Assembly (NCBI RefSeq): GCF_021496665.1
Contig: NZ_CP071246.1
Coordinates: 1,240,001-1,304,000, forward strand
From: Corynebacterium sp. CNCTC7651
GTDB lineage: Bacteria; Actinomycetota; Actinomycetes; Mycobacteriales; Mycobacteriaceae
Length of the DNA: 64,000 bases
Direction: 5' to 3'
Shown here: positions 860 through 61,646 of the stretch, in pieces
Layout of the letters: every line of letters starts with the position of its first letter
Numbering within the stretch: the stretch's first letter is position 1
Program-made: the position numbers and the translations under genes
Notes under the pieces: model-generated
Database searches by the model: none
Seen by the model: only the letters and a program-made list of their open reading frames with translations
What the model was told of the DNA's origin: nothing

Positions 860-2270
860 CTAGCGCCCGCGCACCATCCTGCGCAGTCTGCCAAGGTACT
901 CGCTGATGCGTTTCTCGGCCCCGTGGTCTGTGGGTTCGTAGTACACGCGATCCTCCAAACCGTCGGGAATGTACTGCTGCTCCACCACGCCCCGCGGGTC
1001 ATCGTGCGGGTACAGGTACCCCACCGCGTGGCCCAGCGCCTTTGCACCCTGGTAGTGGCCATCGCGCAGGTGGGCGGGCACAGGACCAACGTTGCCCGCC
1101 CGCACATCCTCCTGGGCTGCCGCAATCGCTTGGTACACCGCCGCGGATTTCGGCGCGGTGGCAAGGTGAATCGTGGCTTGCGCCAGCGCGAGTCGCCCCT
1201 CCGGCATGCCGATGAACTGCACAGCCTGCGCCGCCGCAGTAGCAGTCTGCAGCGCTGTCGGGTCCGCCATGCCGATGTCTTCGGAGGCGTGGATCACCAA
1301 CCGGCGCGCGATGAAGCGCGGGTCCTCCCCCGCCTCAATCATGCGGGCCAGGTAATGCAGCGCCGCATCTACATCGGAACCGCGGATGGATTTAATGAAC
1401 GCGCTGGTCACGTCATAGTGCTGGTCCCCATCACGGTCGTAGCGCACCACCGCGCGGTTCACGTTGTCCCGCACCACATCCACGGTCACCGTGCCGCCCT
1501 CCGGCACGGCTTCCGCCGCCGCCTCAAGGTACGTCAAGGCCCGGCGGGCATCCCCGCCGGCGAGGAGGACAAGCTGGTCCCGTGCATCGTCGTCAAGCAC
1601 AATGCCCCCGCCCAGGCCGCGCTCGTCCGAAACGGCGCGGCTAAGCACGCCGCGGATGTCGTCGTCGCTCAAGGGCTCGAGCTTGAGCAGCAAGGAGCGG
1701 GACAAAAGTGGCGCGACGACGGAGAAGCTCGGGTTTTCGGTGGTCGCGGCGACAAGGAGCACGGTGCGGTTTTCCACCGCGGCCAAGAGCGCGTCCTGCT
1801 GCGTTTTGGAGAAACGGTGGACCTCATCGATGAACAGCACCGTCTTCTCGCCGCGCACAAGATCGTGCCGGGCAGTGTCGATCACTTGGCGCACCTCTTT
1901 CACCCCGGAAGTCAGCGCCGAAAGACCCACAAAGCTCTGCCCCATCGTCTGCGCGATGAGAGAGGCGATCGTCGTCTTGCCCGTGCCCGGCGGGCCGTAC
2001 AAGATCACCGACGCCGCGCCGGAGCCCTCCACCAGCCGACGCAGCGGTTTACCCCTCCACCAGCCGACGCAGCGGTTTACCTTCGGAAAGAAGATGGCGC
2101 TGGCCCGCGATCTCGTCCAGACTGCGGGGACGCATCCTCGCCGCCAACGGGGCATCGCTCCCCGCTTCGAAAAAGCTGGCACCGCGCGCGCCGGGCATGT
2201 TGCTTGCCGACGTCCGCTTCTCCCCAGCGTCCTCATCAAACACGCCCCCAAAGAGACCAGCCTGCGTCAT
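860..2270 (-). pseudogene. rarA: RarA/MgsA-type replication-associated AAA ATPase, frameshifted by a 28-bp tandem duplication
   Basis: RarA acts at stalled forks and in recombination. The Walker A motif (GPPGTGKTT), Walker B with DEVHRF, and the C-terminal MgsA/RarA fold ([16 protein letters not shown]) are visible. The true start is ATG 2270, overlapping the upstream phosphotransferase stop as ATGA. The first frame reads to [10 protein letters not shown] and then stops, because a 28-bp unit (2025-2052) is repeated at 2053-2080. Downstream, the second frame resumes with [10 protein letters not shown] and continues normally to TAG at 860. Removing one copy restores one open frame, so this is a very recent mutation or an assembly error, not a decayed gene. 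Confidence 0.9.
2025..2080. repeat. 28-bp perfect tandem duplication inside rarA
   Basis: Two perfect adjacent copies (2025-2052 and 2053-2080) beginning CCCTCCACCAGCC and ending GGTTTAC. The unit is not a multiple of three and creates a TAA stop in the rarA frame. The copies show no divergence. Confidence 0.95.
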
Positions 2271-3474
2271 CGCAACCTGGTAGCCACGCGGTCAGCGAAG
2301 TCTGCGATCACCAGGTACGCCGGGTCGCGCCCAGTGCCCGCGTAGCTGGCCAGGGCCCTAAACGTCTCGTGCAAGTCCTCCCGCACCATGCGTTCCGCGG
2401 CGGTGAACGGACCTTGGTTGCCCGGACGGAGGACGTCGCCTGTGGCGGGCGCGTCGACCTCCTCGATGTCCTCTTCGAAGTCTATGCCGGCGCGTTCAAA
2501 CTCCGCGGCCAGTTCCTCGTCGCCAGCCACAACCTCAGCTAGTGCGACAGGGTTGAGCACGGAGAGGCTGGAGAGCGCCCAGCCGATCAGCGAGCCCGTG
2601 ATGCGCGCCTGCAGGGTGTCTTCGTGCTTCAGCAGCGGCCAGGTGTCCGCGACCTCTGCCAGCCAGGCATCGATGAAGGCGTGCACGGCGTCCTCGTTGA
2701 AATGCTGCGGGGAAATGTAGAGCGGGAACCCGGCGACTACGAAGGCGACGTCAAACGTGGCGTCGCGGAAGCCTGCCCACTCGTAGTCCAAGAACTGGGT
2801 GCCGCGGTCGGTGTACGCGTGAACGCGCGCACTCCTCCGCGCAGCAGCCGGTTCTGGATGTTGGCTGCGGTGAGGCTGACTTCGGTGGGAACCTCGATAC
2901 CGCTCTGCTCCACCATGGCCAGGCCCAATCGAATGCGGTGGGCAAGCAGGCGATCGCGCAGCGCCTGGATGCGCTCCGCTCCCGTGCGGGATCGTGTCAG
3001 GCGCGTGAACAGGACGTTGAACTGCTCCTCTTTCCCCGCCGTCCCAGCATGCATCCGGCCCAAGGCCGTGCCCAGGTTGCGCAGGATCTGCACCAGCTGC
3101 GCCTCGTTCGCCTCCTCCAGCATCGCGGCCAGCGTATCGCCGTCGCCGGAGTCGGAGATGATGAGCATCCGCTTGGCGGTGTCGTACCCCAGCAGCACCG
3201 GGCCGGGGCGCACCTCGCTGCTCAGCGAGGTGGTGAATTGGTATGCGACAACCTCGCGCAGAAACGCGGCATCATCCAACGCGTATCCCGTTTCCGGGGC
3301 GTGCTTGATCACCACAGAACGGTGCTGCAGAAACGGGTTGTGGGCCACGCGCGCGCGAAACACGCCGGCTTGGCCGCTGCCGCTGAGGCGGGTGACATCG
3401 CTCAGGCGTTGGATCCCTCCGTAACGCTTGGTCAGAATCTCTTCCGCTGCTGCGATGACGGCATCCTGCTCCAT
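2267..3474 (-). pseudogene. APH/choline-kinase-like phosphotransferase, single-base frameshift
   Basis: Kinase-fold protein of about 402 residues. The N-lobe shows a VVIKHAPETGY lysine segment followed by LREVVAYQF. The C-lobe shows FLDYEWAGFRDATFDVAFVVAGF, a DYE-type metal-binding region. The reading frame breaks at about 2826-2840, where LLRGG should continue as SARVHAYTDRGTQFLDYEW; the total length is one base short of a multiple of three. A canonical HGDxxxxN catalytic loop is not obvious, as in some actinobacterial family members, so the substrate is unknown. Start ATG 3474; the stop overlaps the rarA start by ATGA. It sits between aspS and rarA, which suggests a housekeeping operon. Confidence 0.75.
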
Positions 3475-3523
3475 CGTCTCACTCCCTTAAGCAGGCGGCG
3501 GGGTTGGGCGGTTGCCCGCCCCC

Positions 3524-5444: not shown

Positions 5445-5609
5445 GGTTTCTTCCTCGTCCTTCCAGTTGAGGGCTAAGTAACGCCGAAGATTCTACCGCT
5501 TGGCCCCAGCGCCTGCCCACAGGCCTTGGTAGGGGGCTTTTGCTTGACGACGTTCCATAGCACCGCGCCCCGAACACACAGCGTGGAGATGTTTGGCAAA
5601 ATGCGTGGC

Positions 5610-7280: not shown

Positions 7281-8675
7281 ATGCCTCAAAGCACGGTGAG
7301 CGTCGTGGACCTGTTCAGCATTGGCATCGGCCCGTCATCATCCCACACGGTGGGTCCGATGCGGGCGGCGAATGCTTTCGTCGAAAAGCTGGGGAAGCTC
7401 CCTGCGACAGTGCGGGTGGAGCTGCGCGGATCGCTGGCCGCGACCGGTATCGGGCACGGCACCGACCGCGCGGTGCTGCTTGGATTGGTGGGCTACACGC
7501 CGACGAACACCAGCGCGGACGTGGCGCCGAAGCCTGGGGATCCAATTCCGGCGGTCGGAACGATCGACGGGCCGGACGGGTCGGTGCACTATGAGCTGGT
7601 TTTTGATCCCATGCCGGTGGAGCAGCACCCGAACTGCTTACTTTTTGATGCGTGGGACGCCGATGGCAACCTGCTGGCTGCGCAGGAAGAGTACTACTCC
7701 GTCGGCGGCGGCTTCATCCTTGACCGCGAAGGCATGGCGGAGCACCACAATGAAACGGGCGTGGCTACTGCCGCGCACGCGGACGCTGTCCCCTACCCGT
7801 TCAGCAACGGTCAGCAGCTCATTGCGCAGTGCGAGCGCCACGGGTTGACCATCGCCGAGCTGATGCTGGCGAACGAGGAAGCTATTCACGGCCGGGAAAC
7901 GCTGAATGCGCACCTGGATGCGGTGTGGGACGTGATGCAGGAGTGCGTGGCGCACGGGCTGAAGACGGAAGGTACGCTGCCCGGCGGGCTGAACGTGCGG
8001 CGCCGCGCGAATCGGCTGCACCGCTTGCTCACGGCGGAGTACCAGGCATCCACTGCCCGCGGATTAGATGCGATGGAATGGGTGAACCTGTACGCGCTGG
8101 CTGTGAACGAGGAGAACGCGGCGCACGGGCAGATTGTCACCGCGCCCACCAACGGTGCGGCAGGCATCATCCCCGCGGTGATGCATTACTGCCGGGACTT
8201 TATGGATGATTTTGACACCCAGCGCGCACGCGAGTTTCTGCTCACCGCTGGTGCCATCGGCGCGATAATCAAGACAAACGCTTCCATTTCCGGCGCGGAG
8301 GTGGGATGCCAGGGCGAGGTAGGCTCCGCATCCTCCATGGCCGCCGCGGGCATGTGCGCGATCCTGGGCGGCTCCCCGCAGCAGGTGGAAAACGCCGCCG
8401 AGATCGCGCTGGAGCACAACCTGGGCTTGACCTGCGACCCGGTGGGCGGCCTTGTGCAGGTGCCGTGCATCGAACGCAACGCCATCGGCGGCGTGAAGGC
8501 CATCAACGCTGCGCGCCTGGCCAAGCTTGGCGACGGCACCAACATCGTCACCCTGGACGACGTGGTGGAAACGATGGCTTCCACCGGCCGCGACATGATG
8601 ACCAAGTACAAGGAGACGTCCATGGGCGGGCTGGCAGTGCAGCTTGGCCTGCCCGTGAACATCACGGAGTGCTAG
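7281..8675 (+). CDS. sdaA: L-serine ammonia-lyase (iron-sulfur dependent)
   Basis: Single-chain bacterial L-serine dehydratase that deaminates serine to pyruvate. 464 residues with fused beta and alpha parts: N-terminal VSVVDLFSIGIGPSSSHTVGPMRAAN, and C-terminal cysteines expected to hold the 4Fe-4S cluster, visible in HYCRDF, GAEVGCQGEVGSASSMAAAG and LTCDPVGGLVQVPCIERN. ATG 7281 is preceded by TACACT and no ribosome site. It converges on hisS with only a 2-bp gap between the two stop codons and no separate terminator. Confidence 0.96.
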   Translation: MPQSTVSVVDLFSIGIGPSSSHTVGPMRAANAFVEKLGKLPATVRVELRGSLAATGIGHGTDRAVLLGLVGYTPTNTSADVAPKPGDPIPAVGTIDGPDGSVHYELVFDPMPVEQHPNCLLFDAWDADGNLLAAQEEYYSVGGGFILDREGMAEHHNETGVATAAHADAVPYPFSNGQQLIAQCERHGLTIAELMLANEEAIHGRETLNAHLDAVWDVMQECVAHGLKTEGTLPGGLNVRRRANRLHRLLTAEYQASTARGLDAMEWVNLYALAVNEENAAHGQIVTAPTNGAAGIIPAVMHYCRDFMDDFDTQRAREFLLTAGAIGAIIKTNASISGAEVGCQGEVGSASSMAAAGMCAILGGSPQQVENAAEIALEHNLGLTCDPVGGLVQVPCIERNAIGGVKAINAARLAKLGDGTNIVTLDDVVETMASTGRDMMTKYKETSMGGLAVQLGLPVNITEC

Positions 8676-8677: not shown

Positions 8678-9964
8678 CTACTCGGCCGGAAGAAAGATCG
8701 CGTCGATCACTGCGCCCGGATCGAGCGGCACGGTCTGCTGCTCCTGGGTTTTCAGGTTCTTCACGGTCACCTCGCCGGCCTCTAGCTCGCGATCGCCGAG
8801 CACAAGCGCGGTGTGTGCGCCTGCGCGGTCCGCGCCCTTCATCGCGCCCTTGAGGCCGCGGCCGCCGTACGCCATGTCTGCGGCGATGCCGTTGGCGCGG
8901 AGATCGTCGATAAGCAACGCCATGCGCTGCTGCGCAGCGTCGCCGATGGCGACACCGAAAACGTCCACGCGGGCATCAACCCCGTCCAGCACTACGCCCT
9001 CCGCTTCGAGGGCGAGCACGGTGCGGTCCACGCCGAGGCCGAAACCGATGCCGGAGAGATCCTGGCCGCCGATCTGCGCCATGAGCCCGTCGTAGCGCCC
9101 GCCACCGCCGATGCCGGACTGCGCGCCGAGGCCGTCGTGCACGAACTCGAACGTGGTCTTGGTGTAGTAATCCAGGCCGCGGACCATGCGCGCGTTGATC
9201 ACGTACGCCACGCCCAGGGCATCGAGAGTGGACGTCACGGTGTCGAAGTGGGCGCGGCAGCCCTCGCAGAGGTGGTCCAGCATCAGCGGCGCGGCCTCGG
9301 TCATTGCGCGGACATCCTCGCGCTTATCGTCCAGAACGCGTAGCGGGTTGATTTCGGCGCGGTGGCGGGTTTCCTCATCCAACGGCAGGTCGAAGAGGAA
9401 CGCCTGCAGCTTTTCGCGGTAGGTAGGACGGCATTCGGCGCAGCCCAAGCTGGTCAGCTCGAGCCGGAAGCCGGTCAACCCCACGGAGCGGTAGCAGCGG
9501 TCCGCCAGCGCGATAATCTCCGCGTCCAGCAGCGGATCATCCACACCGATAGCCTCCACGCCCACCTGCTGCAGCTGGCGGTAGCGGCCGGCCTGCGGGC
9601 GCTCATAGCGGAAGAACGGGCCGTAGTAATTCAGCTTCACCGGCAGGTAGCCGCGGTCCAGGTTGTGCTCAATCACCGCGCGCATCACGCCCGCGGTGCC
9701 CTCCGGCCGCAGCGTGACCGAACGCTCGCCGCGGTCCTCGAAGGTGTACATCTCCTTGCTCACCACATCCGTGGATTCGCCCACGCCGCGGGCGAACAGC
9801 GTGGTGTCCTCGAACACCGGCAGCTCGATGTGCTGGTAGCCCGCGAGGCGGGCCTGCTTTGCAAACTCGTCGCGCACCTTAATAAAGGTTGCGGATGCCG
9901 GCGGGACGTAATCCGGCACACCTTTCGGGGCGGAAAGGGCCTGGAACTTATTCTTCTCGCTCAC
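8678..9964 (-). CDS. hisS: histidyl-tRNA synthetase
   Basis: Class II synthetase of 428 residues. Visible landmarks: [14 protein letters not shown], motif 2 [25 protein letters not shown], the histidine-binding segment [17 protein letters not shown], motif 3 [16 protein letters not shown], and a C-terminal anticodon-binding domain from about residue 330. GTG 9964 is the chosen start: TAAACT lies 8 nt upstream and overlaps the stop region of the next gene, suggesting a leaderless promoter. In-frame starts farther upstream would run into the hydrolase gene and lack conserved residues. Confidence 0.95.
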
Positions 9965-9978: not shown

Positions 9979-10614
9979 CAACCGGCGCGCATTCGCCTCG
10001 CGCAGGAAGGGGTTGCTCGCTCGCTCTTGCTTGACAGAGGTCACGGGACCATGCCCCGGCAGCACCGTCGCCGTATCGTCCAGTTCCCACACCGGACCGC
10101 GGAGTGTCTCCCGCATGGCAGCCGGATCTGAGTACTCCAGATCCGTCCGCCCGATAGAACCTCTAAATAGCACGTCCCCGCCGAACACGATCTCATCCAT
10201 GCTCAGCAGCACACTGCCCGGCGAGTGCCCAGGTGCGTGGCTAACGGTAAGTTCCACGCCGGCTACCTCAATGGTCGCGCCGTCTTCGAGGTCGCGGATG
10301 TCGGCTGGGAGGCGCATCGAATGAGCGTCGAAAAGCGTGCGGGAATGCTCCGGCACGCCGCCTTGCAGCATGAACGCGTCCGCGGGGTGGATGTAGACCG
10401 GAACGGCGAGTTCAGCGGCGTCGCGGACATGGTCCAGGTGTCCGTGGGTGAGCAGTACAGCACTGAGCTGCACGCCCTGCTCCGCGAGGATTTGCTGCAC
10501 CCGCGGCGCTGCGCCCAGGCCGGGATCCACCACAAACGCGTGGCCGATCTCCTCGTTGACCACAACATAGCAATTGGTCTGGTACGGCCCGGTGGAGAAT
10601 CCTGCGATCTGCAT
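9976..10614 (-). CDS. metallo-beta-lactamase fold hydrolase (glyoxalase II-like)
   Basis: 212 residues. The zinc signature [17 protein letters not shown] (HxHxDH), the later histidine in [14 protein letters not shown], and the [15 protein letters not shown] segment identify a glyoxalase-II-like hydrolase with two metal sites. The gene lies just upstream of hisS, as Rv2581c does in M. tuberculosis. Start ATG 10614 has AGGA about 7-8 nt upstream. The physiological thioester or other substrate cannot be read from the sequence. Confidence 0.88.
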
Positions 10615-11709: not shown

Positions 11710-11742
11710 GGCTTTGCTTGACGACGCAAGCTTCCGACCCTA

Positions 11743-14730: not shown

Positions 14731-16939
14731 TTACGCTGTCACCCGGTAGATGTCGAAGACGCCCTCAACGTTGCGGAGCTGGTTCATAATCTGGCCGAGC
14801 TGTTTGATGTCGGAGACTTCGATGGTGAGGCGCACCGTAGCCACCCGATCATCCCCCGCTTGGGATGAAAGTGCGAGGATGGGCAGCTTCTGCTCCGATA
14901 GCACGCCGGTAAGCTCTGCGAGCAAACCGTTGCGGTCCAGCGCCTCAACCTGGAGGGTGGCGCGCGAGGCGCTTCCGGTGCCGCTGGCGTTGGCCCACGC
15001 GACGTCGATAAGCCGCTCCGGCTCCTCGCGCAGCTTGGCCGCATTGGTGCAGTCGCCGCGATGCACGGAGACTCCCCCGCCACGGGTGACAAACCCGAAG
15101 ATTTCATCACCCGGCACAGGCTGGCAGCACTTGGCAAGCTTGGCCATCACGTCCGGGCTACCCTGCACAAGGACGCCGGGGCCGTCATGCCGCGACGCAC
15201 GCTGGATGATCTCGGCTCACGTGCTGCGCGGACACGTTGCCGGCGCCAATCGCGGTATACAGCGCGTCTACGTCCGGGTAGTGCAGCTGCGTGGCAACGC
15301 GGCGCATAGATTCCGCGGTGAACAGGCGGTGCATGGGCAATCCGCCACGCTGCACCTCTGCCGCTAGGGCATCGCGGCCAGCTTCGAGGTGCTCCTCGCG
15401 GCGTTCTTTGGCAAACCACTGGCGGATCTTGGACTTCGCGCGCGGGGAGACCACGAAGTCTTGCCAATCCCTGGACGGGCCGGCGTTCTGGTCCTTGGAG
15501 GTGAAGATCTCCACGCGGTCGCCGGACTTGAGTTCGGACTCCAGCGCAACAAGTTTGCCGTTGACCTTTGCGCCAATGCAGCGGTGGCCAACCTCGGTGT
15601 GCACCGCGTAGGCGAAGTCCACCGGGGTGGAACCGGCGGGCAAGTTCACCACGTCGCCCTTCGGGGTGAACACGAAGATCTGCTGGCTGGTCAGGTCGTA
15701 GCGCAGCGAATCCAAGAACTCGTTCGGGTCCGCCGCTTCCTTCTGCCAGTCCAGCAGCTGGCGCATCCACGCCATCTGGTCAACCTCGGCCTGATCACCC
15801 TTGTGGGAGCCCTTGGTTTCCTTGTAGCGCCAGTGGGCAGCCACGCCGAACTCTGCGTTGTAGTGCATCTCATGCGTGCGCACCTGCACTTCGAGGGGCC
15901 GGCCGGTGTCCGTCATCACCGTGGTGTGCAGGGACTGGTAGACACCGAAGCGCGGGTTGGAGATGTAGTCTTTGAACCGCCCCGGCATGGGCGAGTACAG
16001 GGCGTGCACCACACCGATCGCGGCGTAGCAATCATGCACCGTGTCTACCAGGACGCGGATGCCCACGAGGTCGAAGATCTCGTTGAACTCGTGGCCGCGC
16101 ACCACCATCTTCTGATAGATGGACCAGTAGTGCTTCGGCCGCCCCATCACTTCGCCGTCAATGCCGTTGGCGCGCAGCTCCGCCTGGAGCTCTGTGGTGA
16201 TCTCGTGCAGCGCCCGATCGCGCGACGGGGCGTGGTCCGCCACTAGCCGCACAATCTCCTCGTACTTTTTCGGGTAGAGGATGGCAAAGGCGAGGTCTTC
16301 CAGCTCCCACTTCACACTGGCCATTCCCAGGCGGTGAGCCAGCGGTGCGATAACGTCCAGCGTTTCGCGCGCCTTCTTCGCCTGCTTTTCCGGCGGCAGG
16401 AAGCGCATGGTGCGCATGTTGTGCAGCCGGTCCGCCACTTTGATCACTAGCACGCGCGGATCTTCCGCCATGGCCACGATCATCTTGCGGATGGTTTCCG
16501 CCTCCGCGGCAGCCCCCAAGGCAACCTTGTCCAGCTTGGTCACACCGTTGACCAGTCGGGCAACTTCGGGGCCGAACTCCTCGGTCAGCTGCTCCAGGCT
16601 GTAATCGGTGTCCTCCACCGTGTCGTGCAGCAGGGCGGCAACCAACGTGGTGGTGTCCATGCCCAGCTCGCCGCAGATGGTGGCCACGGACAGCGGGTGG
16701 GTGATGTACGGGTCGCCCGACTTGCGGTACACGCCCTCGTGCAGCCGCTCCGCAGTCTCGTAGGCGCGATTGAGCAGCTCAACGTCCGCCTTCGGGTGGT
16801 ATTTCCGGTGGATGGAAAGCAGCGGGTCCAACACGGGATTCGTGCGCGCGCGCCCGCCACCGGTGAGAGACCGCGCGAGGCGGGCAGACACGCTTCGCAC
16901 AGTAGGGCCGGAACGCTTCGTGGGTTTATCGTGCGTCAC
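14731..16939 (-). pseudogene. rel: bifunctional (p)ppGpp synthetase/hydrolase Rel, frame broken by a small deletion
   Basis: Stringent-response enzyme making and degrading (p)ppGpp. In order: hydrolase domain with [10 protein letters not shown] and [15 protein letters not shown]; synthetase domain ([44 protein letters not shown]); TGS domain ([44 protein letters not shown]); then ..GNVSAQHV at about 15216. The expected next residues are missing and the frame changes; the correct frame resumes at [30 protein letters not shown], with the zinc-finger/RIS and ACT domains. Loss is 3n+2 bases, by comparison with Rel length (about 760 residues) roughly 70-80 bp. Start GTG 16939 has GGAGG upstream. 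The N-terminal 580 residues could still be made. Confidence 0.9.
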
Positions 16940-17016
16940 CGTGTGCCCTCCGAATCCAGGGGTGAAATTGAACGTCGTAAAGCAAAGAAAGCTCTAGTTT
17001 AGCGCCCCGGAGTTGG

Positions 17017-35362: not shown

Positions 35363-35452
35363 GGCGCTTCATTGCGCGTTGCTCCAATAGTCGGCAAAGA
35401 CGCAGCCTTAGTTCCCGCGGGGTGAAAACAATCGTCGATAAGCACCCCTGCC

Positions 35453-37861: not shown

Positions 37862-38542
37862 ATGCACAGCCAGGTTGATCCCAAGCACCTCGTCGGCCCC
37901 ACCCTCCCCGTGGGCGAGCGCGAAGTCCGCGCCGTGACCATCAACACCCTCTTCGGCGGATTCGGCCGCGCTGGCACGTCCGGCCCACTGGGCAACGAGA
38001 CGGACGCCGCACTCATCGGCGCGCTGCGCAGCTGGGCGGACGTGATCCTGGTCGGCAGCGGCACTGTCCAGGCCGAGGACTACGGCCCGGCACACACCCC
38101 CATGGCTGTCCTCAGCACCTCACTCCAGCTGGACACGGACTTGGGCATTTTCCACGGCTCACGGCTCATCGTCCTCGCCCCGGAGCGCTCGCTTGACGAC
38201 GTTTCCCTCGAACCCAACCGCCACGCCCTCCGCAACGCGGGAGCGGAGCTCATGAGCTCGGGAGGTGGCAGCGCCCCCGAGATCATCAACGCGCTCCACG
38301 AGGCGGGTTTCGCGCGCATCCTCTGCGAGGGCGGCCCGAGCGTCTACGCCGACATGCTCTCCGCAGACCTTGTCGATGTCCTGCACCTCACCCTGGACCC
38401 CTCCATCGGCCCGGAGGACGGCCCGTTCGGCCTGAAGCTGGGCGGGGATCAACACCCGCGCCGTTTCGCCATCGAAGATGCCACCGTAGACGGCACTGCG
38501 ATGCTCTTCTGTCGGTTGCGGCGGGTGGGGGAACGTCGATAA
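37862..38542 (+). CDS. RibD C-terminal/dihydrofolate-reductase-like reductase
   Basis: 226 residues with the RibD_C fold: VTINTLFGGFGRAGTSGPLGNETDAALIGALRSWADVILVGSGTVQAEDYGP, then LHEAGFARILCEGGPSVYADMLSADLVDVLHLTLDPSIG. NADPH-dependent pyrimidine or related reductase is the general role. By position it matches Rv2671, whose product can replace dihydrofolate reductase; that function is inferred. Start ATG 37862 has TATTCT 7 nt upstream. A copy of the recurrent GCTTNNCGACG word overlaps its stop. Confidence 0.8.
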   Translation: MHSQVDPKHLVGPTLPVGEREVRAVTINTLFGGFGRAGTSGPLGNETDAALIGALRSWADVILVGSGTVQAEDYGPAHTPMAVLSTSLQLDTDLGIFHGSRLIVLAPERSLDDVSLEPNRHALRNAGAELMSSGGGSAPEIINALHEAGFARILCEGGPSVYADMLSADLVDVLHLTLDPSIGPEDGPFGLKLGGDQHPRRFAIEDATVDGTAMLFCRLRRVGERR

Positions 38543-38556
38543 GCAAGAGCCCCCGG

Positions 38557-44899: not shown

Positions 44900-46144
44900 C
44901 TACTGCCCGCGCGGGGAAAGTTCCACGATGGTTTCGAAGTGGTGGGTGGCCCCGAAAGCGTCGACAAGCATCATGCGCCCCGGCACGTACCCCGCCGAAG
45001 CCCACGCCGCGAGGTCGCGCGCCAGCGTCGCCGGATCGCACCCGATGTGGATCACCCGCTCCGGGCCTGCTGCGGCAACCGCCTGCACTACCTGCTCTCC
45101 CGCACCAGACCGCGGCGGGTCCAGCACAACAAGGCTCGGGGCTGGGAGCGTATCGACGCTCCCTTCAACCCTGCCCCGGTGCACCTCCACCGGAAGGCCG
45201 CGCAGACCCGGCTGCGGGTTCGACGTGGCCGCCGGGGAGTAGTCCACGGTGTGGACGGTGGCCCCGCCGGTCGCCGCGTGGATGGCGGGCACAAACGCGC
45301 CGACGCCGCCGTAAAGGTCCCACGCATCGCCGCGGGAGTAGGAGTCAGCGCCCCATTCCTGGATTAGGTGTGCATAGGCTTCGGGTGCCTCTTGGTGCGC
45401 CTGCCAGAATGCGGTGGCGGGAAAGCTGAACTCGGCATCCCCAATGCGCTCAGTTACCTGCCCGGTCCCCTCGATGACAGTGTGGATCTCTTCCACACGC
45501 CGCCCGCGTTGCACGCGCGCTGTCTCAACCACGTGGCGCGTGCCGTCCGCGTCGCGCACGGCCACAACCTCACTGCCGGGAGTGAACCGCTGCTGGCCGA
45601 TCAGCCCGTCAGTCAAACCGGGCACCGGCTGCGTGCAAGCCTCAGACGCGATGACGTCCGTGGAGCGGGCACGGCGCACGCCGGCCAGCCCCGCCTGGTC
45701 TACGCCCAGCCGCACGCGGGTGCGCCATCCGACGTGAGGCTCGAGCGCGCGGGCGTCAATGGATGCTGGGTCAAACGCCTCCAAGGCGCCCGAGCGTCCG
45801 GCCAACGCGGAGAGCTGGCCCCGCAATACGTCAAGCTTCAGGTCCAGCTGCGCATCCGGCGCGACATGGCTGTAATCGCAGCAGCCCGCGCCCGCGGCCG
45901 CAGCCGGGCAGGCAGTTGGCACGCGGATGGGTGAAGGCTCGAGCACCTCGACCAGGTCGGCGCGCGCCCAGCGCTTCTTCTCCTTGGTCAAGCGCGCGGA
46001 GACGGTGTCCCCCGGCAACGCGCCGGCGACAAAGACCACTCGCCCATCTGCGTCGTTGCCAATGCCCTCCCCGCCGTGGGCCATGCGAGTGATGGCAAGG
46101 TTGACGGTGCCGCGTTCAGTGGTGCCGTGTTCAGATTCGGTCAT
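44900..46144 (-). CDS. TrmA/RumA-type RNA m5U methyltransferase
   Basis: 414 residues. N-terminal TRAM domain (LAITRMAHGGEGIGNDADGRVVFVAGALPGDTVSARLTKEKKRWARADLVEVL), a cysteine-poor metal region (CPAAAAGAGCCDYSH), and a SAM methyltransferase domain with DLYGGVGAFVPA, VVLDPPRSGAGEQV and the catalytic Cys segment IHIGCDPATLARDLA. Substrate (tRNA or 23S rRNA uracil) uncertain; matches Rv2689c. Start ATG 46144 follows the DUF3710 stop by 2 bp. Confidence 0.85.
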   Translation of the reverse strand: MTESEHGTTERGTVNLAITRMAHGGEGIGNDADGRVVFVAGALPGDTVSARLTKEKKRWARADLVEVLEPSPIRVPTACPAAAAGAGCCDYSHVAPDAQLDLKLDVLRGQLSALAGRSGALEAFDPASIDARALEPHVGWRTRVRLGVDQAGLAGVRRARSTDVIASEACTQPVPGLTDGLIGQQRFTPGSEVVAVRDADGTRHVVETARVQRGRRVEEIHTVIEGTGQVTERIGDAEFSFPATAFWQAHQEAPEAYAHLIQEWGADSYSRGDAWDLYGGVGAFVPAIHAATGGATVHTVDYSPAATSNPQPGLRGLPVEVHRGRVEGSVDTLPAPSLVVLDPPRSGAGEQVVQAVAAAGPERVIHIGCDPATLARDLAAWASAGYVPGRMMLVDAFGATHHFETIVELSPRGQ

Positions 46145-48692: not shown

Positions 48693-49574
48693 TTAAGGCC
48701 CCTCCAAGGGTTGGTCCGCGCCTGCGGCAGCAAGCAGGTCCGCGAAGGGCTCCCACAACCGCGGTGCCGCGGCAATGACAGGCGCGCCGATGTCCGCGCG
48801 GTCCACAAGACCCGGGTGCACGACCTTCGCCCCCGCTTCGGCGGCGATGACAGCGCCGGCCGCGTAATCCCAGGGGTGCGTCCCGTGCTCGTAGTACGCA
48901 TCCACCCGCCCCTCCGCCACGTGGCACAGGTCCAGCGCCGCAGAGCCGAGGCGCCGGATGTCGCGCACGCGCGGCAGAATGAGCCGCAGCATCTCCGCCT
49001 GCTTGGCGCGGCGGGCGGCGTCGTATGCAAAGCCCGTAGCTACCAGCGCCAGATCGGTGTTGGACTCGCGCGACGCAATCAAGCGCCGCCGCTCGCCGCC
49101 GCGCTCCACAAACGCACCCTCGCCGGCGGCAGCGGAGTACACGTCCCCGTTCGCCACATTCACCACGCACCCAGCAACCAGCTCGCCGTGCAGGGCAGCG
49201 CCGATCGAGACCGCATACACAGGCAGGCCGTAGAGGAAGTTCACGGTGCCGTCGATCGGATCAACGATCCACAGCACACCACTGGTGCCCGCTACATCCG
49301 CGCCCTCCTCCCCGAGAATGCCGTCGTCAGGCCTCAGCTCCTTCAGACGTTCAGTAATGCGCTGCTCGGCGGCTTTGTCCACCGCGGTCACCGGATCCAC
49401 CGGCGAAGTCTTGGTGCTGGTCACTTGGGCGACGGACCCGTGCTTCGCCAGGAAATCGCGCTGGAGCACGATGAGGTCGGCGGCATCCTTGGCCAGGTCT
49501 AAGCAAACGTCGAGAAGCTCGGTGGCGGCGGGAGTGGGCTGAGAGGAAGTGGGTGTGGCGTCCATGTGCTCCAT
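48693..49574 (-). CDS. suhB: inositol monophosphatase-family protein (SuhB-like)
   Basis: 293 residues. Metal-binding motif [66 protein letters not shown]. It should dephosphorylate inositol or related phosphates; inositol is needed for PIM lipids and mycothiol. The start is ATG 49574 (MEHMDATP) or ATG 49565 (MDATP). Divergent from ppgK, same order as Rv2701c-Rv2702. Confidence 0.9.
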
Positions 49575-49611: not shown

Positions 49612-50373
49612 ATGGCAGAGGGCACGAACCTTGGTGTGGGCGTGGATGTCGGCGGCTCCGGCATCAAGGGCGCAGTGGTTGATCTGGATACCGGCGAGTT
49701 TGTCGGCGAGCGGGTGAAAATTCTCACCCCGAAGCCGGCCACCCCGGATGCGGTTGCCGCCGTGGTTGCGGATATTGTGCGCGAGCTGGACTGGGACGGC
49801 CCCGTCGGCGTGGCGCTGCCGAGCGTGATCAAGCACCAGGTCGCCCAGACCGCGGCCAACATCGACAAGTCTTGGATTGGCACCAACGTCCACGATCTGC
49901 TTTCCCGCCACCTCGGCGCGCGCCCCATTGCCGTGCTGAACGACGCTGACGCGGCCGGCCTCGCCGAAGTAGCGTTCGGGGAGCCGGAGGCGCAGAACGG
50001 CGCCGTCATCTTCCTCACCTTCGGCACCGGCATCGGCTCCGCATTCTTCGCGGAGGGCAGGCTCTTCCCCAACACCGAGCTGGGGCATTTGCTTATCGAC
50101 GGTCGAGATGCCGAGCACATTGCTTCCTCCGCCGTGAAGGATGCTGAAGAGCTCAGCTACTCCCAGTGGGCGGAACGCGTTGATGGCGTGCTGCACGAGT
50201 TTGACCGCCTGTTCAACCCCACCGCGTTCGTTGTGGGCGGCGGAATCTCCCGCAAGGCGGAAAAGTGGGTGCCGAAGTTGACGGTTGATGTACCCGTCAT
50301 CCCCGCGAAGCTGCGCAACCGCGCGGGCATTGTGGGTGCGGCGATGGCAGCCCACGATCACGTCACCCCCTAA
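49612..50373 (+). CDS. ppgK: polyphosphate glucokinase
   Basis: 253-residue ROK kinase phosphorylating glucose with polyphosphate or ATP. ATP loop [71 protein letters not shown]. Start ATG 49612 has TACACT 7 nt upstream. The sigA gene follows in the same orientation. Confidence 0.94.
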
Positions 50374-50562: not shown

Positions 50563-52197
50563 GTGGTAGCCAGCGAAGCTTCAGGCGAGGACACCGTCAC
50601 CGGCGCGGCAAACGCACCTGGCGGTGATACCGGCACGGAATCCACCACCGGCACAACCGGCACCAAGCGTGCTGTGAAGAAGACGGCGAAAAAGACTGTC
50701 AAGAAGACGGCTAAGAAGGCCGTGAAGAGGACCTCCACCGCCACTTCTGCGGCAGCTGAGGGTGCGGATGTGGAGGCAGCCGATGATGGCGAGCAGGCTC
50801 CGGTGAAGCAGGCTGCCAAGAAGACCGCGAAAAAGACCGCCAAGAAGGCCGTGAAGAAGGCTGCCAAGAAGACGGCGAAAAAGACCGCGAAGAAGGCAAC
50901 GAAGAAGACGGCGAAGAAGACGGCGAAGAAGGTTGCCGCTAAGGACTCGGCCGTTCCTGGCGAGGACCAGCTCGAGCCGGAAGAGCTTGAGACCGAGGAC
51001 GGTCTTAGTGTCGGCGAAGAGGAGCCGGCCGATCTGGATTACGACCCAGAAGACCCGGAGCTCATCGACGACGAGGATGACGCGTTCGATGACGAGCTGC
51101 CGGGCGACCTCGAGGACGATGAACTCGACGGCGATGAGGCCGACGAGGATGAAGAGGACGAGGAAGATGAGGACGAAGAGGAAGACGATGGCTCCTCCGT
51201 CTGGGACATCGAAGAATCTGCCGCCCTCCGTCAGGCCCGTAAGGATGCGCAGCTCACTGCCTCTGCTGACTCTGTTCGCGCGTACCTGAAGCAAATCGGC
51301 AAGGTGGCCCTGCTTGACGCGGAGCAGGAGGTTTCCCTGGCCAAGCGCATTGAGGCTGGCTTGTACGCCCAGTACCGCCTTGATGAGATGGCCCGCGCCG
51401 CGGAAGAGGGTGACAAGGATGCCAAACTCACCCCTGCGATGAAGCGTGATCTCCGCGCCGTTGCACGCGACGGACGCAAGGCGAAGAACCACCTGCTGGA
51501 GGCCAACCTCCGCCTCGTGGTTTCCCTGGCAAAGCGCTACACCGGCCGAGGTATGGCGTTCTTGGACCTGATCCAGGAGGGCAACCTGGGCTTGATCCGT
51601 GCTGTGGAGAAGTTCGACTACTCCAAGGGCTACAAGTTCTCCACCTATGCAACATGGTGGATCCGCCAGGCCATTACCCGCGCGATGGCGGACCAGGCCC
51701 GAACCATCCGCATCCCGGTCCACATGGTCGAGGTGATCAACAAGCTCGGCCGCATCCAGCGCGAGCTGTTGCAGGACCTCGGCCGCGAGCCGACGCCGCT
51801 TGAGCTGGCGAAGGAAATGGACATCACCGAGGAGAAGGTCCTCGAGATCCAGCAGTACGCCCGCGAGCCGATCTCACTGGACCAGACTATTGGCGACGAG
51901 GGCGACAGCCAGCTAGGCGACTTCATCGAGGACTCCGAGGCCGTGGTCGCCGTGGACGCTGTCTCCTTCACACTGCTGCAGGACCAGCTCCAGGACGTGC
52001 TCCACACGCTCTCCGAGCGCGAGGCCGGCGTGGTCCGCCTGCGCTTCGGGCTTACCGACGGCATGCCGCGCACCCTCGACGAGATCGGCCAGGTTTACGG
52101 CGTGACCCGCGAGCGTATCCGCCAGATCGAGTCGAAGACCATGTCTAAGCTGCGCCACCCCTCCCGCTCCCAGGTACTACGCGACTACTTGGACTAG
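50563..52197 (+). CDS. sigA: principal RNA polymerase sigma factor SigA
   Basis: 544 residues. N-terminal half is unusual: Ala/Lys-rich AKKTAKK repeats (about residues 40-125), then a strongly acidic stretch ([20 protein letters not shown]). The conserved part has region 1.2 ([27 protein letters not shown]), region 2 ([74 protein letters not shown]), region 3 and region 4 ([23 protein letters not shown]). GTG 50563 was chosen since AAAGG lies 7-8 nt upstream; GTG 50548 is the alternative. Vegetative sigma; terminator at 52237. Confidence 0.96.
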
Positions 52198-52236
52198 GCG
52201 GACCGGGCTGGCGCTGTGCCAGCTTGGCGACGATTG

Positions 52237-53918: not shown

Positions 53919-55757
53919 CTACCAACCGCGGAGGTAGGCAATGCGGTCGCGAAGTTGCTCCGCGTTGCAGAGCGCCGTGGGTGGACCGCCGCAAGCGTTG
54001 CGCGCCTCAGTATGGATCGCGCCGTGGGCGCGCCCGGTTTTACTTGCGACGATTGCAACACGCGCGTTGAGCTCCTTGCGCAGCTCCGGGATTTCGTCGG
54101 AGGCAACAGCTCCAGAAGTGCCGGCCCCAGAAGTGCCGGCCCCTGAACTGCTGGCCCCAGCTGACGCAGCCCCGGCTCCGCCGCTTGGTGGTTGGGATGT
54201 TCTTCCGTCGTTAAGCGGGGAGCCCGGAAGGGGCTCGCCCAAAAGCTCGGCGCGCTCGCGGGCCTGCCGCTCGGCCGCCCGGCGCGCCTTCTCCTCGGCG
54301 TCCCTCGCGTCGAGCTGGTCGCTCTGGCGTTTACGCAGAAGCAGTTTCACCTGCTCAGCGTCAAGCAAACCGGGAAGCCCCAGGAAGTCCTGCTCCTCGG
54401 CGGAGCCGGCTTCAGTTGGGGTGCCGTAGGTGGAGCCTTCGAAAATGAGCGAGTCCAGCTCGGCGGACGCGCCGATGGCCTCGTAGCCGGTGAGCTCGTC
54501 CGGCTCGTTCTCGGTGCGGTTCGCCTGCTCCAAGAGCTCGTCGGACCAGCCGGATTCGCGGTGCGGCTTGCCCAGCACGTGGTCGCGCGCAACCTCCATG
54601 TCCTCGGCGAGCTGAAGCAGCACCGGCACGGACGGCAGGAACACCGAGGCAGACTCGCCGGGCAGGCGGGAGCGCACAAAGCGCCCGATGGCCTGGGCGA
54701 AGAAGAGCGGGGTGGACGCGGAGGTGGCGTAGACGCCGACGGCCAAGCGCGGCACGTCCACGCCCTCGGACACCATGCGCACGGCCACCATCCACTCGGA
54801 CGTGGAGTTGGAGAATTCTGTGATGCGGTCGGATGCTCCGGCTTCGTCCGAAAGCACGACGGTGACCGGCGTGGAGCTGATGCCCTGCAGGATCTTTGCG
54901 TAAGCGCGCGCGGTGGTGGTGTTGGTGGCAATGACCAGCCCGCCGGCATCCGGCATGTGGGCGCGGATCTTCATCAGGCGGGTGTGCGCGGCTGTGAGCA
55001 CCGCCGCGATCCAATCGCCTTTCGGGTCCAGCGCCGTGCGCCACGCTTTCGCTGTCTGCTCCGCATTCAGCGGCTCTCCCAGACGCGCGGAGTATTCCTC
55101 CCCCGCCGAATCCTTCCACTGGGCCTCGCCGGAATAGGCCAGGAACACCACCGGGCGCACTACGCCGTCGCGCAGCGCCTCGGCGTAGCCGTAGGTGTAG
55201 TCGGACTGGGAGACCAAGTGGCCCTCCCCGTCCTCTTCGTAGCGCACGAAGGGGATCTGCGAATCGTCGGACCGGAACGGCGTGCCGGTCAAAGCCAAGC
55301 GGTGCTCTACGTCGTTGTACGCCTCATAGATACCGTCGCCCCAGCTCTTGGCGTCGCCCGCGTGGTGGATCTCATCCAGAATCACCAGCGTGCGCCGCGC
55401 ACTTGCAACGGCGTGGTGCTTGAACGGGTGCATGCCCACCTGGGCGTACGTGACCACAATGCCGTCGTAGGCAGGGTTCACCGCGGACGCGTTGGTGAAG
55501 TCCGGGTCCAGCGACAGACCGAAGCGCTTTGCCGCGTCTGCCCACTGGTGCTTCAGGTGCTCGGTTGGCACCACCACGATGAGGCGCTGCACGCTTTTCG
55601 ACGAATACAGCTCCGCCGCCAGCGTCAAAGCAAACGTCGTCTTGCCGGCGCCCGGCGTAGCAACAGCGAGGAAGTCTCGCGGCTTGTCCCGCAGAAACGA
55701 ATCAAGGGCCTCCTGCTGCCATGCGCGCAGACGAGGCCCCGAGGTTGACGATGTCAC
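53919..55757 (-). CDS. superfamily 2 DEAD/DEAH-box helicase
   Basis: 612 residues. Motif I ATPGAGKTTFALTLAAEL, motif Ia VVVPTEHLKHQW, motif II LDEIHHAGD, motif III ALTGTPFRSDD, motif V MVSEGVDVPRLAVGVYAT and motif VI QAIGRFVRSRLP, so an SSL2/XPB-like SF2 helicase. The C-terminal linker has GAGTSGAGTSGA repeats. GTG 55757 overlaps the DUF3039 stop as GTGA, giving coupled translation. Role unknown; DNA repair or RNA turnover is possible. Confidence 0.85.
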   Translation of the reverse strand: MTSSTSGPRLRAWQQEALDSFLRDKPRDFLAVATPGAGKTTFALTLAAELYSSKSVQRLIVVVPTEHLKHQWADAAKRFGLSLDPDFTNASAVNPAYDGIVVTYAQVGMHPFKHHAVASARRTLVILDEIHHAGDAKSWGDGIYEAYNDVEHRLALTGTPFRSDDSQIPFVRYEEDGEGHLVSQSDYTYGYAEALRDGVVRPVVFLAYSGEAQWKDSAGEEYSARLGEPLNAEQTAKAWRTALDPKGDWIAAVLTAAHTRLMKIRAHMPDAGGLVIATNTTTARAYAKILQGISSTPVTVVLSDEAGASDRITEFSNSTSEWMVAVRMVSEGVDVPRLAVGVYATSASTPLFFAQAIGRFVRSRLPGESASVFLPSVPVLLQLAEDMEVARDHVLGKPHRESGWSDELLEQANRTENEPDELTGYEAIGASAELDSLIFEGSTYGTPTEAGSAEEQDFLGLPGLLDAEQVKLLLRKRQSDQLDARDAEEKARRAAERQARERAELLGEPLPGSPLNDGRTSQPPSGGAGAASAGASSSGAGTSGAGTSGAVASDEIPELRKELNARVAIVASKTGRAHGAIHTEARNACGGPPTALCNAEQLRDRIAYLRGW

Positions 55758-56553: not shown

Positions 56554-58073
56554 GTGACCGCTCCCACTCCCCCAGCGCCACTCATGCGTGAGCTTGCTGC
56601 CGCGCTCACCAGCGCAAACTTCACCGCCGAGGGTATCGCCGCGCACTTGGGCCCCGACGCCACCGACGCGCTTTACCGCGGCGAGCCCGGCGTTGTCCTC
56701 GCCGCCACCCGCGGCGGCACCACGCTGGATTCGCTCATCCGCTTCTTCCTCCTACGCCGCCCCGCCACCGGCGAGCAGCTCGCGGACATGCTGGGTTCCC
56801 GGCTGGGGCTTTCGCTTATCGACGCTTCATTTGTCGCCCCAACCCCAGCAGGCGACCTTGAAGTCCAGTTTGACGTTCGACCCCACATCGTGGCCGGCGA
56901 GCCTAGGTTGGTGCTGTCGGACCGAGACGCCTCCGTCACCGACATCGTGCCCGGGCGGGACCACGTTCTGGGTGTTGGTGCCGCGTCCCTGTCTCTCTTA
57001 TCCGCCGCACCCCAGACACCCGTGGACCGGGTTTTGGACCTTGGCACCGGTTCCGGCATCCAGGCCCTGGCCCAGGCAGGTTGCGCGGAGCGCGTGGTGG
57101 CGACGGATGTGCACCCCCGCGCAATTGCGCTCGCGGAAGCAACGCTTGCAGCAAACAACGTGGACAACGTGGAGTTGCGCACCGGCGGCTGGTTCGATCC
57201 GGTGGCCGGCGAGCGGTTCGACCGGATCGTGGCCAACCCGCCGTTTGTGGTGGGGCTGCCGGAGGTTGGTCACGTCTACCGCGATTCCGGGCTCGCGCTC
57301 GACGGGGCGACCGAACTCGTGCTTTCACAAGCACCGGACTACCTGGCTGAGGACGGCACCGCGTGCGTGTTGGGCGCGTGGGTCCACACCTTGGACACAC
57401 CGTGGCAGACGCGTGTGGCCTCCTGGCTGCCGTCGACAGGCATCAGTGCGTGGGTGCTGCAGCGGGACGTGGTGGACCCCGGCATGTACGTCTCCACCTG
57501 GCTCAAGGATGAATCAGTGGACCCCCGCTCCCGCGAAGCCATCGAACGCACCGAGACGTGGCTGGACTTTTTCGATGCCCATGACGTGCACGCAATCGGC
57601 TTCGGCTGGGTGTTCCTCCGCGACATCGGGGATGCATCGTCCGAGATCACTGCCGAAGAGCTGCGCCAGACCTTCACCGATCCCCTCGGCCCCGAGGTGG
57701 AGGAGTACTTCCTGCGCACTGACTGGCTGCGGGGCCGCGACAGGGACGGTGTCCTAGACGCGGCGTACCTTCTCCGTCCCGGCGTGGCGTTGGAAGACGT
57801 CCAGTTGGCGGTCCTAGACGCGGCGTACCTTCTCCGTCCCGGCGTGGCGTTGGAAGACGTCCAGTTGGCGGATGACGTAACCGGTATGGGTTTTGCGCCT
57901 GAGGTCATCTTTCCGGGCTCCACCCGCAAGGCCTGCCCTTACGCGCGGTGGTGGGCCTGCTCGCAGCCTCGCGCGGCCTTACCGACGCGGCCCAGATCGC
58001 CGAGCTGGAGGCGGATGCCGCGAGCGTGATCGTTGACCTGGTTCGCCACGGTTTAGTTATTTATCCCCGCTGA
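56554..58073 (+). pseudogene. class I SAM-dependent methyltransferase (HemK/RsmC-like fold), 60-bp duplication and 3' frameshift
   Basis: N-methyltransferase type: LDLGTGSGIQALAQAG (motif I), VVATDVHPRAIALAEATLAAN, and IVANPPFVVGLPE (NPPF, motif IV), so an adenine or glutamine N-methylase fold; substrate unknown. Start GTG 56554. A 60-bp segment (57751-57810) is repeated in frame at 57811-57870, doubling VLDAAYLLRPGVALEDVQLA. Further on, one base is missing at about 57930 (CGCAAG GCCTGCCC), after which the frame ends at 58029; the other frame reads GLPLRAVVGLLAASRGLTDAAQIAELEADAASVIVDLVRHGLVIYPR to TGA 58071. Both faults look recent. Confidence 0.8.
57751..57870. repeat. 60-bp perfect in-frame tandem duplication
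   Basis: Copies 57751-57810 and 57811-57870 (start GTCCTAGACGCGG) are identical. Being a multiple of three, the duplication alone would not break the frame. Confidence 0.95.
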
Positions 58074-58639: not shown

Positions 58640-58680
58640 GTAGTTGGATTCCCCACAACCTTATGAGGAGGCAGCACCAC

Positions 58681-59673: not shown

Positions 59674-59695
59674 ATACCCAGGTCGAACACGTTGT

Positions 59696-59725: not shown

Positions 59726-59750
59726 CCCGCAACATTCAGCTGGGCTGGGT

Positions 59751-59756
59751 TAAAGT
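59751..59756 (+). promoter_or_regulatory. -10 element of dtxR
   Basis: TAAAGT, 7 nt before ATG 59764, without a ribosome site; leaderless start likely. Confidence 0.5.
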
Positions 59757-59763
59757 AGTGCGT

Positions 59764-60450: not shown

Positions 60451-60470
60451 AGCTAGCGTGGCCCCGGCAA

Positions 60471-61646
60471 TTACTTAGCCCCTGCGCGGCCCTCCAGCAG
60501 CTCCCAGGCTTCGCCGCAACCGCGCAACGCGGTTTTGATGAGAGACTCGTGGGCGCCTGCGCGCAGAAGTTGTGCAAGGTAGTAGGACAAAGAGTGTTCC
60601 GGGATTTCTTCCTGCGCGCACTCTAAGGCGGCACTTGCCCAGGATGTGAGCTTGAGCTTCACTGCAATCAGCGCCCAGATGCACAGTGCATTGCAGCGGA
60701 TGACGCCGTTGTAGTTGCGGGCGATGTCCACCAGCACCGCCCCCGCGGAAAATGGATGGTCCAGCGCCGTGGCAATCAGGCTGTCGCGCAAAGGGTTGCG
60801 GGTGAGCACTGCGGCGACGTGCTCGAGATCGTGCGTTGCGGCGGACAGATCGCGTGAAGTGGACCAGGCCTCGTCTCCAATGAACGGCCCCGCGGTTGCG
60901 GTACGCAGCACATCGCAGGCACGCTGGACCTCCGCGCGAGCGTTTCCCGGGTCCGAGGAGAGCGCATCTACAAGGCGCTGGCCGCGGCCGTAGATCGAAG
61001 CAAGGGTGCGGCTGTCCGGCATGCACCCGATCGGCCCGCACGCGTCGAAAAATGAGCGGGTGTGCTCGCGGTCCAGCTCAGGAAGCGCGCCCAGGGCCAG
61101 CAACGGCGCCATGGTGGGTTGGGCTACCACCGAGGAAATCGTCCCGCCAGCCACATTGTCGGGCAGGCCAGCCTCGGTGAGTACCGGGTTATCTGGGCCG
61201 AAGAGGGTGGTGTACGGGGTGCCGGTGGCGATCTCTGAGGCCAGCCAGCAAGCGTCGATAAGCGGGAGCCCAGTTGTGGCACGGGCGGCGCCGAGTTCGA
61301 AAACAGCATCCGCGACTAGGGGGGAGTCCGGGATGCGGCTGATAACAAGGGCAAGGCGGGCGGCGGTGAGTTCGGTGGTGGTGGAGGAGGCGTATTCGGT
61401 GATGCGGGCGGTGTGGCAGAGGTCGGTGCGCAGGATGGGGCCGAGGAAGAGCCCATCTGTGTCGCGGTTGTGCTCGAGGGTGAGGATGATGGCGGATTCC
61501 TGAGGGTAGAACCCGAGGATGCCGGGGATAGCGGCGAAGAGGTCGCCGAGGCTGCGAAGCGTTGCCTCGACGGGGGTGTGCGGAGTGGACTGGGATTCAA
61601 AGTGTGGTGTTTGTGTCATGGGTATTGGACGCTCGCGGGGCCGCAT
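60471..61646 (-). CDS. DUF4192-family protein
   Basis: About 391 residues, function unknown, family common in actinobacteria next to dtxR (Rv2712c). Features: LRSLGDLFAAIPGILGFYPQESAIILTLE, an ITEYASSTTTELTAARLALVISRIPDSPLVADAVFELG segment, DLEHVAAVLTRNPLRDSLIATALDHPFSAGAVLVDIARNYNG, and SYYLAQLLRAGAHESLIKTALRGCG. No signal peptide. The start is ATG 61646 (AAAAGG 9 nt upstream) or ATG 61619 (MTQTPHFE). Converges on dtxR. Confidence 0.8.
   Translation of the reverse strand: MRPRERPIPMTQTPHFESQSTPHTPVEATLRSLGDLFAAIPGILGFYPQESAIILTLEHNRDTDGLFLGPILRTDLCHTARITEYASSTTTELTAARLALVISRIPDSPLVADAVFELGAARATTGLPLIDACWLASEIATGTPYTTLFGPDNPVLTEAGLPDNVAGGTISSVVAQPTMAPLLALGALPELDREHTRSFFDACGPIGCMPDSRTLASIYGRGQRLVDALSSDPGNARAEVQRACDVLRTATAGPFIGDEAWSTSRDLSAATHDLEHVAAVLTRNPLRDSLIATALDHPFSAGAVLVDIARNYNGVIRCNALCIWALIAVKLKLTSWASAALECAQEEIPEHSLSYYLAQLLRAGAHESLIKTALRGCGEAWELLEGRAGAK

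Follow-up and report, generated by a model that had tools for sequence, protein, structure and literature searches.

A gapped word with dialects, enriched across most Corynebacterium genomes, is a candidate DNA-uptake sequence

Words that mark self DNA for uptake have so far been known only from the Neisseriaceae and the Pasteurellaceae, according to one account (PMC12616744). Two further papers describe dialects and one two-dialect genome in the Neisseriaceae (PMC3630211) and report a bias towards one in-frame orientation for the uptake sequences of both families (PMC2346458). Among actinobacteria, Micrococcus luteus is naturally transformable by means of Flp/Tad pili, and its genome includes comEA and comEC (PMC6370729, PMC6667448). 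No uptake word for Corynebacterium or any actinobacterium was found among the matches listed in the open full-text literature, subscription papers and preprints lying outside this scope. Here, we analysed 64,000 nucleotides of Corynebacterium sp. CNCTC7651 (the window; positions 1240001-1304000 of G000:C1, the one contig of 2,453,109 bases that makes up genome G000), in which an initial annotation had noticed a recurrent gapped word. This word, GCTTNNCGAYG, exists in two dialects that differ by a C-T transition, namely C (GCTTNNCGACG) and T (GCTTNNCGATG). Judging from sequence, we consider it probable, at roughly 0.65, that GCTTNNCGAYG with its lineage-specific flank letters is a DNA-uptake sequence of the genus Corynebacterium, with dialects.

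The word is in large excess throughout the genome. G000 as a whole holds 1,418 copies of GCTTNNCGACG (695 forward and 723 reverse), a 20-fold enrichment over the reversed word used as a control (30 + 40 = 70). In a 464-kb sample, consisting of the window and 20 stretches of 20 kb from the same genome, we counted 255 words, where Markov models of orders 1-5 expect 7.8-10.8 (24-fold over order 5) and an order-6 model, with parts of the word already built into it, gives 27. The enrichment is thus neither close to a Markov expectation nor limited to the window, the two outcomes that the initial annotation had set against its own suggestion. When gapped words were ranked in six sampled word-rich genomes (46.7-60% GC), the word topped the list in four, and in G131 the first place was taken by an overlapping form of it. 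A local direct-repeat family with parts such as CCGCATACG and AACTACCTC fills the top of the list in G267 (L083-L085).

Within the window, exact GCTTNNCGACG occurs at 34 sites, 17 per strand, against a mean of 1.05 and a maximum of 4 in 100 dinucleotide shuffles. All 26 sites listed at first are exact matches, each placed within 1 base, so the reported enrichment was real; the total of about 26, however, was too low, eight sites having been overlooked. The remark that most copies are TGCTTATCGACG or TGCTTGACGACG was an overstatement, as by-eye counting gives these two forms 11 of the 34 sites together. The sites, all exact matches, are as follows:

1588..1598, minus strand, word GCTTGACGACG
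2202..2212, plus strand, word GCTTGCCGACG
5542..5552, plus strand, word GCTTGACGACG
7379..7389, minus strand, word GCTTTTCGACG, overlooked earlier
8525..8535, plus strand, word GCTTGGCGACG, overlooked earlier
8905..8915, minus strand, word GCTTATCGACG
10326..10336, minus strand, word GCTTTTCGACG, overlooked earlier
11716..11726, plus strand, word GCTTGACGACG
15003..15013, minus strand, word GCTTATCGACG, overlooked earlier
16973..16983, minus strand, word GCTTTACGACG, overlooked earlier
19381..19391, minus strand, word GCTTGACGACG
20482..20492, plus strand, word GCTTGCCGACG
27451..27461, minus strand, word GCTTATCGACG
27772..27782, plus strand, word GCTTATCGACG
30476..30486, plus strand, word GCTTTTCGACG
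30604..30614, minus strand, word GCTTCACGACG, overlooked earlier
35433..35443, minus strand, word GCTTATCGACG
36362..36372, plus strand, word GCTTATCGACG
38191..38201, plus strand, word GCTTGACGACG
38534..38544, minus strand, word GCTTATCGACG
39073..39083, plus strand, word GCTTCTCGACG
39124..39134, minus strand, word GCTTAACGACG
42531..42541, minus strand, word GCTTGACGACG
42777..42787, plus strand, word GCTTGCCGACG
44959..44969, minus strand, word GCTTGTCGACG
49508..49518, minus strand, word GCTTCTCGACG
50091..50101, plus strand, word GCTTATCGACG
52050..52060, plus strand, word GCTTACCGACG, overlooked earlier
52222..52232, plus strand, word GCTTGGCGACG
54206..54216, minus strand, word GCTTAACGACG
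55593..55603, plus strand, word GCTTTTCGACG
56814..56824, plus strand, word GCTTATCGACG
61253..61263, minus strand, word GCTTATCGACG
63806..63816, plus strand, word GCTTTACGACG, overlooked earlier

The word is asymmetric, two-part and non-palindromic. Its middle NN pair is preferably AT, TT or GA. Two letters past the end of the word there is usually T or C, and G is frequent 6-9 bases before it. Beyond about 12 bases on each side, the flanks in the 464-kb sample show little except coding periodicity, and therefore the words are not portions of a longer repeat. One-letter neighbours in G000 lie mostly near or below expectation. The clear exception is GCGTNNCGACG, which at 84 copies against 13 expected is evidently tolerated as a variant; weaker excesses are shown by GCTCNNCGACG (29 copies, again against 13) and by replacements of the first or second letter with A. 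In the same genome, 10-mers such as ATCCCCGCTA and GCTCATCCCC reach 85-95 copies (L031-L050) and resemble parts of a CRISPR repeat array.

Checks of strand bias, spacing and flanks, which had been proposed at the outset, gave preferences only near the word, an approximately exponential spacing with a mean of 1.66 kb, and no polarity. With the origin placed at dnaA (2,306,671), there was no replication-strand bias in 24 stretches (132 words in the leading and 145 in the lagging direction), nor did distance from the origin show a significant correlation (rho -0.38, p 0.066). A supposed word-free island at 62-82 kb turned out to be only a partial thinning and was dismissed. By a simple purpose-made gene caller, 198 of the 255 sampled words lie inside genes and 57 wholly or partly outside, non-coding DNA making up 16.4% of the sample; as first described, the word occurs in both orientations, in genes and in gaps. 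Genic words stand on the coding strand 133 times and antisense 65 times, and 122 of the former share the frame xxG-CTT-NNC-GAC-G (Leu-x-Asp). Six copies of a 263-aa frame, with equal-score sub-threshold matches to a DnaA-like ATPase, were seen in G000:C1 at 70133, 999185, 1172638, 1792195, 1932992 and 2333713; this frame is probably an insertion sequence helper.

Comparison with related species, also proposed at the outset, places the word in the genus. Among 242 Corynebacterium genomes, 159 contain at least 400 C-words, 12 contain 195-399 and 71 fewer, and word-rich genomes carry about one word per 1-7 kb. In 40 genomes from other families of the order (among 100 relatives) the counts stay near the reversed control, with a top ratio of about 1.6. 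We call wordless those genomes that have fewer than 195 C-words and no T excess; 54 of the 242 are near background for both dialects, a few of them (for example, G178 with 134 and G231 with 127) being two- to fourfold above the reversed control. No prominent substitute word was found in 80 kb each of the wordless G009, G013, G014, G110 and G106. Words were also counted in 80 comEC loci of about 21 kb each; for example, C. gottingense has 13 C-words, C. kefirresidentii 12, C. lipophiloflavum, C. lemuris, C. tuberculostearicum and C. silvaticum 11 each, C. oculi 9 and C. mastitidis 4, against 0 in C. jeikeium and C. glyciniphilum, 1 in C. parakroppenstedtii and 0-2 in other genera. G153, which we take to be C. 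glutamicum ATCC 13032, contains 1,183 C-words (79 in ten stretches totalling 200 kb, with 3.2 expected at Markov order 5), and G275, presumably C. vitaeruminis, contains 1,454.

The T dialect was counted in 80 of the 242 genomes, including all 71 with fewer than 195 C-words. GCTTNNCGATG reaches 490-1,337 copies in 14 of them, 159-223 in 4 and 21 in G000; its reversed control, which includes a stop codon, is biased towards low counts. In about 21 kb each, C. macginleyi and C. phoceense lack GCTTNNCGACG but have 9 and 8 copies of GCTTNNCGATG, respectively, several of which sit at orthologous positions. In pooled sequence, T genomes hold 78 T- and 4 C-words (185 kb), C genomes 151 C- and 7 T-words (275 kb) and wordless genomes 14 T- and 7 C-words (489 kb). 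Both dialects occur together in G119, assumed by us to be C. camporealensis, with 1,337 T-words (CGATG) and 352 C-words (CGACG); this genome may be in mid-switch between them. When the C. macginleyi side was aligned with the C. tuberculostearicum/kefirresidentii side (77% surrounding identity), the dialect letter was the single difference for 8 of the 14 C-words that could be aligned and for 8 of the 10 such T-words, and in the comEC loci of four C-T pairs such a change was found at just 3 of 13 sites (2 gapped). Flank letters form sub-dialects as well: NC follows the word in 94-95% of cases in pooled T loci and their C sisters and in 63% in G103, and A stands directly after it at 87% of 40 sites in G131 (L074-L076).

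In a tree of 44 TadA proteins, the 12 T genomes fall into one 17-member clade (SH-aLRT 99), whose other members are 4 C genomes and a single wordless genome. The three labels (C, T, wordless) require 6 changes on this tree, compared with a mean of 17.7 after shuffling. Thus, the state was switched and lost within lineages. G013 (L057-L060), a wordless genome that is nested in the T-dialect clade and has comEA, comEC and the Tad genes, is perhaps a case of recent word loss.

Phages of word-rich hosts are poor in the word. Five of them (BFK20, P1201, phi674 and two of C. vitaeruminis; three of the five in part) contain 4 C-words in 236 kb, where host density predicts 98, the host densities resting on guessed species. 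The recorded hosts of the first three are Brevibacterium flavum, which we take to be C. glutamicum, or C. glutamicum itself. Four words in 236 kb place the phages at the composition background and not below it.

Codon choice inside the word differs from that of the genome at large. Leucine is written CTT in 9.1% of cases overall in G000. Ahead of NNC-GAC-G and with a preceding G, CTT accounts for 122 of 159 cases; if the third letter of the middle codon is not C, it accounts for 7 of 128. By a cruder longest-frame rule, which recovers 80 of the 122 in-frame sites, aspartate in word context is GAC in 80 of 81 cases in G000 (63% overall) and GAT in 46 of 50 in the T-dialect G103 (55% overall); in the word frame of G153 it is GAC in 32 of 36, and five wordless genomes together gave GAC 4 and GAT 5 times. 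This synonymous choice shows that the DNA word itself is kept. In two comparisons of relatives, words also survive divergence: between C. tuberculostearicum and C. kefirresidentii, with two Tad loci added, 14 of 20 are unchanged at 88.5% identity (about 7 expected for independent letters), and between the T genomes G218/G254 and G122/G103 this holds for 7 of 14, including 2 gapped, at 76.7% identity (about 1 expected). Control words offered too few aligned sites for a comparison (0 of 1 unchanged, 2 of 5, and none).

The shared reading frame could point to a codon-pair or protein-motif effect, the more so as the Leu-x-Asp motif is over-represented in its own right (910 seen, 728 expected). The excess of the word, however, follows neighbouring codon letters and not amino acids. 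Moreover, 65 of the sites in coding sequence are antisense, and 57 of 255 words are at least partly outside called genes. We give this explanation practically no chance, and as a sole cause it is refuted. Given the Leu-x-Asp excess, the words shape not only DNA but protein sequence as well. A bias of the HIP1 kind, arising from methylation or repair (for example, a methyltransferase with Vsr-type repair), would make the C and T dialects two outcomes of methyl-C deamination and repair. The C-T transition between the dialects agrees with this, and HIP1 itself is a case of a word that is abundant for reasons other than uptake. Such a bias, however, hits one letter, yet all nine fixed letters are enriched jointly and most one-letter neighbours are not, apart from the clear exception GCGTNNCGACG and the weaker ones named above; wordless genomes are enriched for neither form, and the word is asymmetric with flanking preferences. 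We therefore regard it as quite unlikely.

The word could also be the site of a cytoplasmic chromosome protein (a nucleoid organiser, a condensin loader or a ParB- or FtsK-type guide) and be kept for the chromosome's sake. High copy number, rough evenness along the chromosome and rarity in phages are all compatible with such a site, but replication polarity and a significant trend from the origin are absent, and near-background counts in 54 of 242 species together with a one-letter genome-wide switch would be odd for a core function; this is unlikely. A Chi-like signal read by an AdnAB/RecBCD-type nuclease in repair would share the genome-wide over-representation and the phage rarity. Nevertheless, Chi-type signals are usually strand-skewed, whereas the strands are equal here, and a two-part 11-mer with flank preferences exceeds the known Chi words in length, which makes this reading very unlikely. 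Each of the four explanations fits worse than a DNA-uptake sequence on at least one point, and the codon effect is the only one to be refuted as a sole cause. The initial annotation had likened the density of the word to DNA-uptake words or HIP1-type sequences. The first half of this comparison best fits the genome, genus, phage, codon and dialect evidence, from which we infer a role in uptake; HIP1 differs from the non-palindromic word found here.

The machinery for such uptake is present. In G000, comEA and comEC lie side by side, followed by a frame taken by eye for holA; dprA is present, and a Tad/Flp locus at 89.4-93.9 kb encodes a CpaE homologue, the TadA ATPase, T2SSF, DUF4244 (Flp pilin) and a Rv3654c-family TadE-like protein. 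ComEC was found in 241 of the 242 genus genomes, and 235 have a T2SSE/TadA-type ATPase that scores above the family cut-off, the T2SSE profile also matching ATPases other than TadA. DprA is present in all 58 chosen genomes, ComEA in all 38 comEC-bearing loci examined, word-rich and wordless alike, and all seven Tad genes were matched in each of the 45 loci examined. Two of these loci are ambiguous: L180 has a short TadC match, and in L191 a single long frame carries both TadE and TadF. The Pfam TadE family (PF07811) had no match in 58 genomes and is uninformative; the TadE- and TadF-like proteins exceed the cut-off of TIGR03816, and their matches to NF041390 are weak and stay below the cut-off of that family. 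The C-terminus of ComEA reads unlike the others in L013 (word-rich G042), L111 (C. phoceense; its protein includes an X) and L128 (C. parakroppenstedtii).

We propose that a DNA receptor at the surface or in the envelope, likeliest tied to the Tad/Flp pilus and ComEA, would bind word-bearing double-stranded DNA, which would then cross the mycolate outer layer. ComEC would bring in one strand, and DprA with RecA would recombine it. If DNA of kin were preferred in this way, word-making mutations would spread by recombination and word-breaking ones would be replaced, so that words would accumulate in both orientations, in genes and in gaps. A change of the reader would shift the preferred letter, with the whole word set following, and dialects would arise. 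Word binding, uptake and the identity of the reader are predictions of this scheme; preferential uptake with recombination would explain the copy number, the absence of polarity, the spread over genes and gaps, the phage rarity, the dialects and the losses.

Several observations weigh against an uptake role. The weakest link is that com and tad genes are equally kept in wordless species and so do not explain where the word is present or absent; either these species have lost a specific reader or relaxed its specificity, or the word serves otherwise. Presence of ComEC or TadA was rejected as the cause, both being nearly universal, and DprA does not discriminate either, all 58 genomes being positive. 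In ComEA, ComEC, Flp and the TadE- and TadF-like proteins, no residue follows the dialects in every genome compared, and Flp is identical from the presumed cleavage site onward in G006 (T) and G004 (C). Two residues agreed with the dialects in an initial set of genomes only: residue 198 of ComEA was discarded as a tracker, as Ser is also found in several C genomes, and residue 318 of ComEC failed in a wider set (Ala in 39 of 47 C and 0 of 9 T genomes). The T-dialect relatives G006 and C. macginleyi, at 88.3% identity, keep only 3 of 8 words unchanged (about 3 expected). Neither a gene-end bias of word density (by called genes) nor a clear excess of close inverted word pairs was found in G000. 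Inverted pairs act as terminators in Neisseria and Haemophilus, and this function was rejected here since the pairs are not enriched. Finally, natural transformation in Corynebacterium is absent from titles and abstract openings among the matches listed in the open literature; "naturally competent" in one open C. glutamicum paper refers to Bacillus.

A broader claim can be formulated from the same sequence data, and the balance in our view tips slightly in its favour: corynebacteria may have a DNA-uptake language, the first from beyond the Proteobacteria. Its self-DNA word would span the genus (most of 242 species, C. glutamicum probably included), have at least two dialects that would bias interspecies transformation, and be read at the mycolate-membrane surface by a receptor linked to the Tad/Flp pilus. 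If true, most corynebacteria are, or recently were, naturally transformable, which would suggest natural transformability of C. glutamicum and many commensal corynebacteria and would offer a simple route for bringing DNA into the industrial strain. With an independent case in another phylum, the third known, it would be clear that words of this kind have evolved more than once. The sister clades of opposite dialect provide a natural experiment for finding the reader protein.

How does the word compare with known systems? HIP1, a palindromic octamer of cyanobacteria, is likewise a very abundant iterated clade word in genes and gaps, whereas the Corynebacterium word is asymmetric and two-part and has dialects. 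Chi and KOPS are over-represented genomic signals too, but Chi is skewed to the leading strand and KOPS is polar toward the terminus, while our word has no replication-strand skew (132 vs 145). The Pasteurellaceae uptake signal sequence (USS; AAGTGCGGT, ACAAGCGGT) is, like the present word, an over-represented self-DNA word of two main types; its reader is a prediction only, ComN (PMC12616744). It differs in its unrelated sequence and its phylum, and in G000 there is no gene-end bias. The fixed letters of our word contain neither the core CTG of the Neisseriaceae DNA uptake sequence (DUS) nor the USS core GCGG, both cores as given in the same paper (PMC12616744), and independence of both families' words is the best reading of this candidate. 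Compared with the DUS (GCCGTCTGAA and dialects; reader, the minor pilin ComP), the word is unrelated in sequence, shows no inverted-pair excess, belongs to an actinobacterium with a Tad/Flp locus and is a candidate uptake sequence. In both systems, however, there are hundreds to thousands of copies on both strands, mostly genic, one in-frame orientation is preferred, dialects about one letter apart follow phylogeny, and a two-dialect genome exists: Simonsiella muelleri there (PMC3630211) and G119 here.

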